Assembly (NCBI GenBank): GCA_016292015.1
Contig: JAEEZY010000029.1
Location: 62,001 to 126,000 of the forward strand
Origin: Bacteroidales bacterium
Lineage (GTDB): Bacteria; Bacteroidota; Bacteroidia; Bacteroidales; P3
Direction of reading: 5' to 3'
DNA: 64,000 bases
The position numbers were made by a program, and so were the translations under genes. The notes beneath the pieces were generated by a model, which saw nothing but the letters and a program-made list of their open reading frames with translations, searched no databases and was not told the DNA's origin. This document shows positions 4,347 through 64,000 of the stretch, piece by piece. Positions within the stretch are counted from its first letter, which is position 1, and each line of letters starts with the position of its first letter.

Positions 4347-4552
4347 AGTTTCAAGTTTTTAGTTTTTAGTTTTTGTTTCAAGTTTTTAGTTTTTAGTTTT
4401 TAGTTTCAAGTCACCCCTCACATCTAACAGGTCACGGATCACAGGTCACAAAAAAATCACTATTGTCTAATCACTAATCACTATTGTCTAATCACTAATC
4501 ACTATTGTCAATTCACTAATCACTAATCACCATTCAAAATTTACAATTCACA
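4347..4552. repeat. Heptanucleotide tandem-repeat block (three families)
   Basis: The gap between the OstA-like gene and grpE consists almost entirely of short tandem repeats. First comes AGTTTTT/AGTTTCA with period 7 (about 4347-4411), then GGTCACA-type units (about 4428-4452), then AATCACT/ATTGTCT units (about 4457-4530), ending in ATTCAAAATTTACAATTCAC. None of the units encodes anything and no promoter can be picked out within them. Confidence 0.9.
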
Positions 4553-4559
4553 ACAAGCG

Positions 4560-5164: not shown

Positions 5165-5376
5165 AAGTTTTTAGTTTCAAGTTTTTAGTTTTTAGTTTTT
5201 AGTTTCAAGTTTTTAGTTTTAAGTTTTTAGTTTTTAGTTTCAAGTTTCAAGTTTTAAGTCACAGGTCACAAAAACAACCCCTCACAATTCACTATTGTCT
5301 AATCACTAATCACTAATCACTATTCACCATTCACTAATCACTAATCACTAATCACCATTCACAATTCACAATTCGC
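5165..5376. repeat. Heptanucleotide tandem-repeat block between grpE and dnaJ
   Basis: Nearly the whole grpE-dnaJ gap is repeat. AGTTTTT/AGTTTCA units run to about 5258, followed by a short AGGTCAC stretch and then AATCACT/ATTCACT units to about 5370. The order of families is the same as in the gap upstream of grpE, so the two blocks look like diverged copies or parallel expansions. Confidence 0.9.
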
Positions 5377-56559: not shown

Positions 56560-56979
56560 GATATATATTTGTTTATTTTTGTTTCACTGATAAATTGCTC
56601 CGTCTAACCGCCTCTTATGCCAGTGGTCATGTATTGGCATGCACCGTTTTAACCTCGAACCTTGAGCTTTGCTAACTTTTTATATATTATTTATTGTGTG
56701 AGCCTTGTGGCGTTATTCACATTCTCCCTTTGTCATTCAAAACCCTGCAAATTAACACAAAAAAAATATAACAACCAATTTATTTTCCATATTCGCTTGA
56801 AAAAGATGGCATCCCGACATCCAAATACCAACCCCTCAATGTTCACAGGTCACAGGTCACTGTTCGCTCCCGTGAGGCAATAAATTCTCCCTTTTCACGT
56901 AATAAATAAAACCATCCTCTCTCAGGTCATTGGTCACTGTTCACAGGTCACACACAGTAGTCGTCAACATTCCGGACAA
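56560..56979. repeat. Repeat-rich gap between topA and the S41 protease
   Basis: The first half is AT-rich with no gene. From about 56841 GTCACAG/GTCACTG/TTCACAG heptamers begin (56841-56870) and return at 56922-56955. The same unit continues into the coding sequence of the protease at 57008. Confidence 0.8.
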
Positions 56980-58677
56980 ATGAAAAAACAAAGCAAAACA
57001 CCAACCCCTCTCAGGTCACAGCTCACAGGTCACAGGTCACTGTTCACACTCACACTTCTGGCGCTCGCATTGCTTCTCTGCATGCCCGCCCAGGCGCAGA
57101 GAAAACACGGCAAACGCAGTCGTTCGTTCGACACTACGGCGGCTGCTGAGGCGCGCATTAAGGAAATGTGGAGTCTCATCCAGGAACGTTATGTCGAGTC
57201 GCCCGATATGGACAGCCTCGCAACGCAAGCCATTGTCGCTATGCTAAAAGCGCTCGACCCTCACAGCATCTATATCCCCGCAAAAGATGTACAGAAAGCC
57301 AACGAGAACCTGCAGGGCAACTTCGAAGGTGTCGGCATCTCGTTTCAGATAGTAGATGACACCATTCACGTCGTTGAAGTCATCGAAGGTGGCCCTTCAT
57401 CCAAGGTTGGAATCCTCCCCGGCGACAAGATCGTAAGCATCGACGGCCGACCCGCTGTAGGCGACAGTGTAAACAACACCTTCGTCTCCAACCACCTGCG
57501 AGGACCTAAGGGCAGTCAGGTGACCATCACTATCCTTCGTAGCTCCCCCGAGAAAGGAAACGCCAACTCCTCTCACGTCACCGGTCACGGTTCACCGGTC
57601 ACTGAAAATTTCACCATCACTCGCGGCAAGGTGCCTATCCGCAGTATCGACACTTGGTTTATGGCCAGCGACACCGTCGGATATATCAAACTCGAGCGTT
57701 TTGCCCGCACCAGCGTCGATGAGTTCCGCGCTGCCCTCGCCGACCTCCAGCGTCAAGGCATGAAGTCGCTCATGCTCGACCTTCGGGGCAACAGCGGCGG
57801 ATTCCTCGACGTCGCCACATCCCTCGCCAACGAGTTCCTCCCTGCCCGCAAGCTGATTGTCTATCAGGAGGGCCGTCGTCAGCCGCGCCATTCCTATTCC
57901 ACCAACGCCACCGGTCGCTTCCGCGAGGGACGTCTTGTGGTCATCATCGACGAGAACTCTGCCTCCGCCTCCGAGATCGTCTCGGGTGCCGTTCAGGATT
58001 GGGATCGCGGCACCATCGTCGGCCGCCGTTCTTTCGGCAAAGGTCTGGTTCAGCGTATGTTCTCTCTCAAAGACGGCTCTCAGGTGCGCCTCACCACCGC
58101 TCGCTACTATACCCCCTCGGGTCGTTGCATACAGAAACCCTACAAGGCTGGCGGCGACGCCTACCGCAACGATATCTACGAGCGCTACAAGCATGGTGAG
58201 CTTATCTCGCAGGATTCCATCCATTTCCCCGACTCTCTGAAGTTCAAGACCTCATCCGGACGTGTCGTCTATGGCGGCGGCGGCATCATGCCCGATGTGT
58301 TTGTCCCCATGGACACAACGAAGCTCGCCGACTATTTCGTCACCCTCCGCAACAAAGGCCTCGTCAACGAGTTCCCACTCCGATGGAGCGAAAATCACAG
58401 AGCGGAATTGAAGGACCTCTCTTTCGACCAGTTCTTGCAAAAATATGACTCATACCGCGTTGACGACGAGTTTGCCGCTTTTGCAACGGCGAAAGGCCTT
58501 GCCACAACCGACACTACCGGCGCCACCGACGCACAGCGGATGGCTACCACCGAGAACTATTTGCATCTCGTGTTGAAAGCCCTTATTGCAAAGAATATTT
58601 TCGGCACAAAATACTACTATCAGATAATGAAAGAGGTTGACCCGTGCTACAAGAAAGCTTTCGAAGTGCTTTTGTAA
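56980..58677 (+). CDS. S41 family C-terminal processing peptidase (CtpA-like)
   Basis: A 565-residue exported serine protease. The N-terminus holds an unusual basic tail (MKKQSKTPTPLRSQ...) before the hydrophobic signal core (LFTLTLLALALLLCMPAQAQ). The N-terminal cap precedes a PDZ domain (about residues 105-190, GVGISFQIVDDTIHVVEVIEGGPSSKVGILPGDKIVSIDG). The catalytic dyad is Ser in IDENSASASEIVSGAV (about residue 327) and Lys in SFGKGLVQRMF (about residue 352). Heptamer repeats encode part of the signal region and a segment between PDZ and protease (HVTGHGSPVTE). Confidence 0.93.
   Translation: MKKQSKTPTPLRSQLTGHRSLFTLTLLALALLLCMPAQAQRKHGKRSRSFDTTAAAEARIKEMWSLIQERYVESPDMDSLATQAIVAMLKALDPHSIYIPAKDVQKANENLQGNFEGVGISFQIVDDTIHVVEVIEGGPSSKVGILPGDKIVSIDGRPAVGDSVNNTFVSNHLRGPKGSQVTITILRSSPEKGNANSSHVTGHGSPVTENFTITRGKVPIRSIDTWFMASDTVGYIKLERFARTSVDEFRAALADLQRQGMKSLMLDLRGNSGGFLDVATSLANEFLPARKLIVYQEGRRQPRHSYSTNATGRFREGRLVVIIDENSASASEIVSGAVQDWDRGTIVGRRSFGKGLVQRMFSLKDGSQVRLTTARYYTPSGRCIQKPYKAGGDAYRNDIYERYKHGELISQDSIHFPDSLKFKTSSGRVVYGGGGIMPDVFVPMDTTKLADYFVTLRNKGLVNEFPLRWSENHRAELKDLSFDQFLQKYDSYRVDDEFAAFATAKGLATTDTTGATDAQRMATTENYLHLVLKALIAKNIFGTKYYYQIMKEVDPCYKKAFEVLL
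57008..57056 (+). repeat. GTCACAG heptamers inside the S41 protease, signal region
   Basis: About seven units of GTCACAG/CTCACAG/GTCACTG/TTCACAC, period 7, are read in frame as residues about 10-26, in the n-region and start of the hydrophobic core of the signal peptide. Confidence 0.88.
57570..57605 (+). repeat. GTCACCG heptamers inside the S41 protease, linker
   Basis: Units GTCACCG, GTCACGG, TTCACCG and GTCACTG, period 7, are read in frame between the PDZ and catalytic regions, encoding about 11 residues near 198-208. Confidence 0.85.
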
Positions 58678-62825: not shown

Positions 62826-62926
62826 TTGTTGATAGGTTTAATGTTGATATGTTGATATGTTGATATGTTCCAGGAAACCACCTGCTCAAAACTAAAAACT
62901 TGAAACTAGAAACTAAAAACTAAAAA
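62826..62926. repeat. GTTGATAT and CTAAAAA repeat block
   Basis: GTTGATAT octamers (about 62826-62868) upstream of the DUF4956 gene are followed by CTAAAAA/CTTGAAA heptamers up to the stop of the polyphosphate polymerase gene. Confidence 0.85.
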
Positions 62927-63694
62927 CTAATAACTAATAACTTTCTCAATATACCTCAGTTTGTCCTTGAATCTGTTTGTTTTTGCGTTAGGGGCGGTGA
63001 GCGCCGTGCCTATACAGTATTTACTCATCCGTTTCGGGTGTATCCTCATGTCCATCAGCGCACGGTCGATTGCCGTCGAGGGGCCACCCACCTCGCGTTT
63101 CACCTCCATCACCACCAGCGGCGAGAGGTCGTAATAGATGCCGCTCGTGTGGTTTCGGAATCGTATCTCGCTGTCGATGGTCACCCGCTCATGCATCCCT
63201 TTGTCCACCAGCGTGATACGGCGGAACGAGTTCTCCAGCTGATCTTTCAGCGAGTCGATAGGGTAGGGGCTCTCTTTTTTCAGAAACTCCCTCACTTCGG
63301 CCACATCGAGGCAGTGGTTGAACAGCTCCGTCTCAATCGGGATGCGTATCTTGTTGGTCTTGCCTTTGTTGTTCTTGTTCTTTATCTCGAAGAAAGTCGT
63401 CTGGTTGCTGCGATAGCAGCGCACACGCAGCTTCTGACGGTTCAACTTGCGGTTGTGGTGGGCGGTGTACATCGCCAGCTCTTCGGTGTCGAAATAGAGT
63501 GTGTGATATGGAGCCAGCGCCTCACCGTCGATACGCTGCACGAAATATTGCGGCGCAATCCGCTCGAGCAGTTCCATCAGCTGACGCCGGTTGATGAGGT
63601 ATTTGTCGTCAACACGGTTCATCAGCCTCACCGCTTTCATCTCCTTCAGGGTGATGGGCGACATCGTGTCCAATATGGGATTATACTGCTCCAA
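62927..63694 (-). CDS. Polyphosphate polymerase (VTC) domain protein
   Basis: A 255-residue protein of the VTC/CYTH-like tunnel fold. Basic and acidic residues line the tunnel: MNRVDDKYLINRRQL near residues 25-40, KLRVRCYRSNQTTFFEIKNKNNKGKTNKIRIPI (about 90-122) and VVMEVKREVGG (about 200-210). In yeast Vtc4 this fold polymerises ATP phosphate into polyphosphate. Bacterial homologues paired with DUF4956 are presumed to act alike. It sits upstream of DUF4956 in the same direction. The start directly follows a repeat block. Confidence 0.85.
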   Translation of the reverse strand: MEQYNPILDTMSPITLKEMKAVRLMNRVDDKYLINRRQLMELLERIAPQYFVQRIDGEALAPYHTLYFDTEELAMYTAHHNRKLNRQKLRVRCYRSNQTTFFEIKNKNNKGKTNKIRIPIETELFNHCLDVAEVREFLKKESPYPIDSLKDQLENSFRRITLVDKGMHERVTIDSEIRFRNHTSGIYYDLSPLVVMEVKREVGGPSTAIDRALMDMRIHPKRMSKYCIGTALTAPNAKTNRFKDKLRYIEKVISY

Positions 63695-63704
63695 TGGGGG
63701 GGAT

Positions 63705-63884
63705 TAGTGAATGGTGAATTGACAATAGTGATTAGTGATTAGTGATTAGTGAATGGTGAATAGACAAATGAAGCTTGCTGTGTGCTGCTAATTATTTATA
63801 ACTAACTACTAAAACTTAAAACTAAAAACTAAAAACTTGAAACTTGAAACTAAAAACTAGAAACTAGAAACTAGAAACTCGAAA
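63705..63884. repeat. AGTGATT and CTAAAAA heptamer block, right edge
   Basis: ATAGTGATTAGTGATT units (about 63724-63762), the 28-bp insert shared with 61941-61968, and then CTAAAAA/CTAGAAA/CTTGAAA heptamers up to the stop of the truncated gene at 63885. Family order and insert are the same as in the block at 61898. Confidence 0.88.
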
Positions 63885-64000
63885 CTAATTCTCCCTAACT
63901 ATCCTTTCGAAAATCTTTGTGCTTTTCAGCTTGCCGTTGGGCAGGTAGGTGTATTGTTTTGCTTTCGTTCCGTCGGCGTTGTATTCGTATTTTTTCACCG
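63885..64000 (-). CDS. C-terminal end of a YD/MORN-like repeat protein (cut by the window edge)
   Basis: The last 38 codons of a gene running in from the right. The visible residues (KKYEYNADGTKAKQYTYLPNGKLKSTKIFERI) show two hairpins of the Y-x-Y-x-x-(D/N)-G type, like the YD/MORN-repeat proteins at 10570 and 41009. The TAG stop lies just inside the repeat block. Nothing else can be said. Confidence 0.5.
   Translation of the reverse strand, partial: VKKYEYNADGTKAKQYTYLPNGKLKSTKIFERIVREN

Follow-up and report, generated by a model that had tools for sequence, protein, structure and literature searches.

Repeats that have entered bacterial proteins are best known from Rickettsia. Judged by analogy, the Rickettsia palindromic elements (RPEs; Ogata et al. 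2000, 2002, as reviewed in PMC10969869) are the closest known case to the locus described here: in the parts of the review devoted to them, they appear as dispersed short repeats, found in frame within unrelated and often essential genes, where they are kept as an extra peptide. They are about 150 bp long, and these descriptions present them neither as tandem heptamers nor as recruited into the core of signal peptides, whereas the inserts in our locus are arrays in a single orientation without a hairpin. The TAACTGA repeats of Beggiatoaceae, Cyanobacteria and some Bacteroidetes (PMC4679880) also consist of tandem 7-nt units enriched before start codons, but they have one invariant motif and are almost only intergenic, whereas here we found many motifs, in degenerate and frequently coding arrays, and TAACTGA was not among them. 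Palindromic amphipathic repeat coding elements (PARCEL; PMC2996958) are likewise coding, dyad-symmetric repeat DNA that spreads within genomes, but they encode a tandem motif of 25 residues, lie in ORFs of unknown function and are not short inserts in housekeeping enzymes. The enterobacterial intragenic units of MITE/ERIC type (PMC2759123) are mobile intergenic repeats found fused in frame to genes, where new peptides have been suggested to arise from them; they measure 103-168 bp and have no heptamer structure. According to the citation in the same paper, Ohno (1987) proposed that early genes were oligomeric repeats, a hypothesis that concerns ancient genes, whereas the insertions reported here are recent and lineage-specific. 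In the literature we searched, we found no heptamers in Bacteroidales coding sequence and no report of heptamer-coded signal peptides.

The host of our locus belongs to a group of uncultured gut bacteria in which seven-base repeats are common between genes. The gene under study lies at 56980..58677 on the plus strand of the window, by which we mean the whole 64,000-nucleotide stretch of DNA analysed (all window features given below are on the plus strand). According to Pfam, it encodes a 565-residue S41 (C-terminal processing) peptidase with PDZ and S41 domains; the Peptidase_S41 match (PF03572; 1e-48, 165.5 bits) covered residues 233-386 and the PDZ_2 match (PF13180; 42.4 bits) residues 118-189, both above the cut-off. 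On the basis of its sequence we assign the product to the CtpA/Prc type. S329 and K354 were invariant across 29 homologues, thus the enzyme looks intact as far as can be judged from these residues; their spacing of 25 is presumably the same as in E. coli Prc. At the N-terminus, a hydrophobic stretch (LFTLTLLALALLLCM) and an AQAQ site were recognized by eye, and a helix was modelled at residues 22-32. All genomes used for comparison were drafts, mostly metagenome-assembled, with one genome per species.

Two segments of this gene carry heptamer repeats. The first, a CTCACAG/GTCACAG array at 57008..57054, encodes residues 10-25 of the leader. When each base was compared with the base 7 positions further on, 28 of 40 matched, a score reached by none of 100,000 base shuffles and none of 20,000 synonymous recodings; TRF independently listed the same array. 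Among the coding windows of G016 (200 kb), a repeat-free member of the genus, none attained the score of this segment or of the second one. The leader array was absent from the sister sequences L002/L031, L032 and L265. The latter two have the same upstream neighbour gene as the window protease; neither heptamers nor TCAC arrays were seen in their upstream gaps, and they count 45 residues from the start to AAAEARIKE, as against 62 in the window protease. Since the repeat occupies the place of the relatives' own start and n-region, the leader looks, from this comparison, more like a replacement plus extension than like a clean insertion.

The intergenic gap upstream of the gene contains repeats of the same kind, as the initial annotation had stated, although not as one array at 56841-56955: sequence inspection and the array scan resolved TTCACAG GTCACAG GTCACTG at 56839..56867 and a second, also periodic, array at 56917..56955, which ends 25 nt 5ʹ of the start codon. 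The 11-mer ACCAACCCCTC, counted only four times in 2.54 Mb, occurs here twice as a direct duplication, with the copies 173 bp apart and each adjoining a GTCACAG array: at 56827..56837, as the flank of the upstream array, and at 57000..57010, within the gene and immediately 5ʹ of the leader array. Through this local duplicate of ACCAACCCCTC and its array, the leader is tied to the intergenic array. An array that extended, or was copied, across a start codon would account for the leader. It was probably copied, together with its flank, from 170 bp upstream and would have taken the place of the ancestral start and n-region in the putative signal peptide, with the ATG at 56980 presumably now acting as the start.

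The second segment is a 51-nt (17-residue) in-frame insertion at the junction of the PDZ and catalytic regions (57556..57606; G193-E209). Its residues are GNANSSHVTGHGSPVTE, about 12 of the 17 being encoded by the heptamer core of TCACCGG/TCACGGT units at 57570-57605. About 110 Bacteroidales S41 sequences were aligned, and every row spanning the linker, including sisters 85% identical to the window protease, lacked the 17 residues; so did those of 16 further S41 loci in which the linker was readable. At the codon level, GAA AAA GAC TTC of L002 corresponds to GAG AAA, the 51 nt and AAT TTC in the window. In the model (29 sequences), the insertion was predicted as a low-confidence coil located after the PDZ domain, with strands 180-187 and 207-214 on either side. 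The core gave 19 period-7 matches out of 29, a score that 1 shuffle in 100,000 attained; among 20,000 synonymous recodings, 57 did so. This array is degenerate, and under the synonymous null its significance is only moderate. When the leader was left out, the window gene still had the highest period-7 score among 107 S41 homologues (16/21; at most 14 in the rest).

The degeneracy of the linker array, and the 57 recodings that score equally high, could be taken to mean that nothing but ordinary protein sequence is present, resembling repeats by an accident of codon bias, low complexity or convergence. We consider this highly improbable, because the leader lies far outside every null, both segments match the genome's own intergenic family, and all homologues show a 17-residue gap exactly where the linker segment lies. 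The proposal of the initial annotation that heptamers had entered this gene twice is upheld by periodicity beyond shuffles at both places, with small corrections to its extents (leader residues 10-26 and about 11 linker residues, now 10-25 and about 12 of the 17 inserted). Its expectation that homologues would lack these segments agrees with the alignment, exactly so for the linker, and in the nearest sisters the leaders are short and, like the gap upstream, free of repeats. It had also allowed for the residues being ancestral; none of the S41 homologues examined has the same residues without the repeat. The origin of new protein sequence from repeats, as suggested there, gains support from the homologues that lack the linker segment and the sisters whose leaders are repeat-free.

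What did not hold was the suggestion that the reading frame had been kept by chance or selection. As 7 mod 3 is 1, three units make seven codons and all frames yield one heptapeptide cycle (VTGHRSQ in every frame of GTCACAG), so that an array needs no frame luck and only the net inserted length must be a multiple of 3; in the S41 linker it is 51 nt. Ohno is said to have pointed out that a repeat unit that is not a multiple of 3 has the same peptide period in all frames. The frame of a heptamer array depends on net length and orientation only: the opposite strand of GTCACAG, CTGTGAC, has a stop in each frame. TCACTAA and AAACTAA, which have stops on both strands, form arrays that stay intergenic, and these stops fit the absence of both motifs from coding sequence here. 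Within the window, AGTTTTT/AAACTAA and TCACTAA arrays adjoin one another at 4347-4553, 5165-5374 and 62888-63888, and in the window's genome such arrays are often joined by boundary motifs, e.g. GACAAATG or ACATTTGCGGGGCGC.

Copy number could also matter as a contingency device, in which the loss or gain of one leader unit shifts the frame and switches the protease, while three units restore it. The tandem units adjoin the start codon, a three-unit change was found at another gene (see below), and a 7-bp repeat reportedly takes part in the expression control of Haemophilus hmw1A. However, the units here are imperfect, which would reduce slippage, and like arrays occur in housekeeping enzymes, where switching makes little sense; we regard such a device as quite unlikely.

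In the sampled contigs of the window's genome (G000), TCAC arrays of at least three units were nearly all intergenic. By a hand tally, 26 were sense and 8 antisense to the next gene (p=0.003), and they often lay no more than 30 nt from its start. The sense orientation and the position a few tens of bases from many start codons would suit a regulatory, RNA- or DNA-binding array that ran into the gene, the coding effect being a by-product. A regulatory role was proposed for similar heptamers before start codons in Beggiatoaceae (PMC4679880), which favours this explanation. It is nevertheless doubtful, in view of the linker copy in the middle of the gene, the unrelated motifs and both orientations of the relatives' arrays, and the absence of any arrays in 200 kb of G016.

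We surveyed arrays in six contigs from five genomes (about 1.19 Mb, sampled by stretches). Period-7 arrays were frequent, with 71 in 220 kb of G002, and control periods were rarer; the 200 kb scanned in G016 had no period-7 arrays. Of the coding arrays in the six contigs, 18/55 fell within the first 40 codons, where 10% were expected (p=6e-6). The motifs in the genus include TCACNNN, AAACTNN, TTTTCAA, CACCTTT and others. A search for four exact units of TTTTCAA was positive in 13 of the 37 genus genomes examined and negative in all 24 from other families of the order. A looser TCAC pattern gave low counts in a minority of these 24; the control with the pattern reversed is a weak one for TCACNNN, whose reverse is itself a heptamer family of the genus. 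Period-11 arrays were seen in all sampled contigs, nearly all of them non-coding, and also in the heptamer-free G016. The loss of MutS was rejected as a cause of repeat growth, as MutS is present in G000, and a YchF-like ORF with an apparent heptamer N-terminus (G000 C34:202935) was set aside as a probable case of a wrong start codon.

The period-7 scores of S41 leaders were bimodal across the genus. Leaders of about 16 genus genomes are built of heptamers (TTTTCAA, TTCTCAA, CACCTTT and, in the window, GTCACAG) and the rest have none, and the S41 tree requires at least 8 changes between the two states. In L044 and L046, which come from two species, the gene bodies are 97.3% identical over 1,539 nt and the upstream genes near-identical, and yet their heptamer leaders are unrelated. 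The S41 leaders of L039, L271, L275 and L276 apparently consist of a 9-nt repeat (TCTATCGCC-like; SIASIASILSIFSIVS) and not of heptamers.

Heptamer inserts were also found elsewhere than in the S41 protease. In about nine of 30 species, a single loop of a phosphotransferase-like protein with a RapZ C-terminal domain contains heptamer inserts, which differ among the species (the recurrent insert site in L235-L264 lies before the motif LYYIDYQG), and a GTCACAG insert orthologous between G014 and its sister G000 differs in length by exactly 21 nt, i.e. three units. A FeoB-like iron transporter of G002 (C1:18091-20226; L174, L175) contains about 45 residues of heptamer-coded THHSSLP repeats. Many arrays in G002 C1, G012 C1 and G014 C9 (L165-L184, L195-L204) are inverted pairs around a short loop, with arm motifs that vary among copies and match within a copy; several contain TGCGTCAGC, which we rejected as a universal loop, since it marks several inverted pairs in these three genomes and none in G000. 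Arrays at G014 C9:153290-160600 (L172, L173) have an apparent 8-nt unit around a TGCGTCAGC loop.

In G012, LeuRS and NrdD share a near-identical insert of about 70 bp, composed of a left arm of AGTGGGT-like units, a loop and a right arm of ACCCACT units. The core of this hairpin element was found in 27 copies (L281-L307, e.g. G012 C1:27910 and C1:32213), which are spread over 11 of the 119 genus genomes. A sample of 393 genomes of the order, only two of which (G000 and G128) belong to the genus, yielded no copy. Of the 27 copies, 26 lie within long ORFs, all sense and in one frame, a count biased towards coding copies by the search pattern, which was derived from them. The encoded peptide is V(G/D)SG(E/Q)CVVDS(S/T)RGQ(A/V)LPTTHYPLPT; coding copies have GAG or CAG in place of the TAG of the pure repeat, which the lone non-coding copy retains. 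The hosts include thymidylate synthase, PurL, a Mur ligase, UvrD-like helicases, RecG, TruA, DapF, NrdD, LeuRS and a second class I tRNA synthetase. Direct comparison with orthologues showed an insertion in LeuRS and the phosphotransferase, and in thymidylate synthase and NrdD it is suggested by the surplus length against the Pfam model. The arms are inverted repeats, which in MITEs are terminal and go with target site duplications and a parent transposase, and the element folds strongly (z -4.35 and -3.67). REP sequences mobilised by RAYT are hairpins tagged with GTAG/CGTC, in genomes with a Y1 transposase; GTAG and GCGTCAGC are also present here, which may be chance. This hairpin form of heptamer DNA may, judging from its sequence, be mobile.

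With its stable hairpin and many dispersed in-frame copies in unrelated ORFs, the 27-copy element closely fits the RPE pattern, as far as the available RPE descriptions go. This heptamer-armed example, 26 of 27 copies of which are in frame, together with the locally duplicated array and flank in the window, raises the question whether the S41 inserts themselves are copies of a mobile, protein-coding palindromic element. We think this improbable and rejected the hairpin element itself as their identity: the inserts in the window gene lack an opposite arm and do not fold into a stable hairpin (z -0.6 and +2.6), and the conserved core is absent from G000.

We have good confidence that both S41 segments are lineage-specific DNA of the TCACNNN family, the linker as an in-frame insertion and the leader as a copied array, and that they belong to a genus-wide process. 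The source would be the family dispersed in intergenic regions, mostly in the sense orientation before start codons, which would have spread by slippage plus ectopic copying; the 51 nt of the linker would have entered a tolerant loop. Near-neutral, in-frame accumulation of heptamer DNA by these two routes is the most likely course. Leaders and surface loops would tolerate such additions, aided by the open heptamer that gives one heptapeptide in every frame. The window gene would then be one case among signal peptides and loops repeatedly rebuilt in the genus. With somewhat less assurance, we favour the broader view that the genus harbours an active heptamer-DNA system, in part mobile one-frame hairpins, which enters essential enzymes and rebuilds signal peptides.

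The genus displays many stages of this process: arrays between genes and at start codons, leaders that were rebuilt although the genes are otherwise near-identical, insertions of different motifs at the same spot of a loop, and three-unit copy changes that keep the frame. It shows how fast a signal peptide, here a putative one, can be replaced. It also makes an old idea testable: repeats whose unit length is no multiple of three should serve well as a source of new protein, since they yield one peptide whatever the frame. If the heptamer system is indeed active, the genus would offer a living model of how repeats that read alike in every frame give rise to protein sequence.
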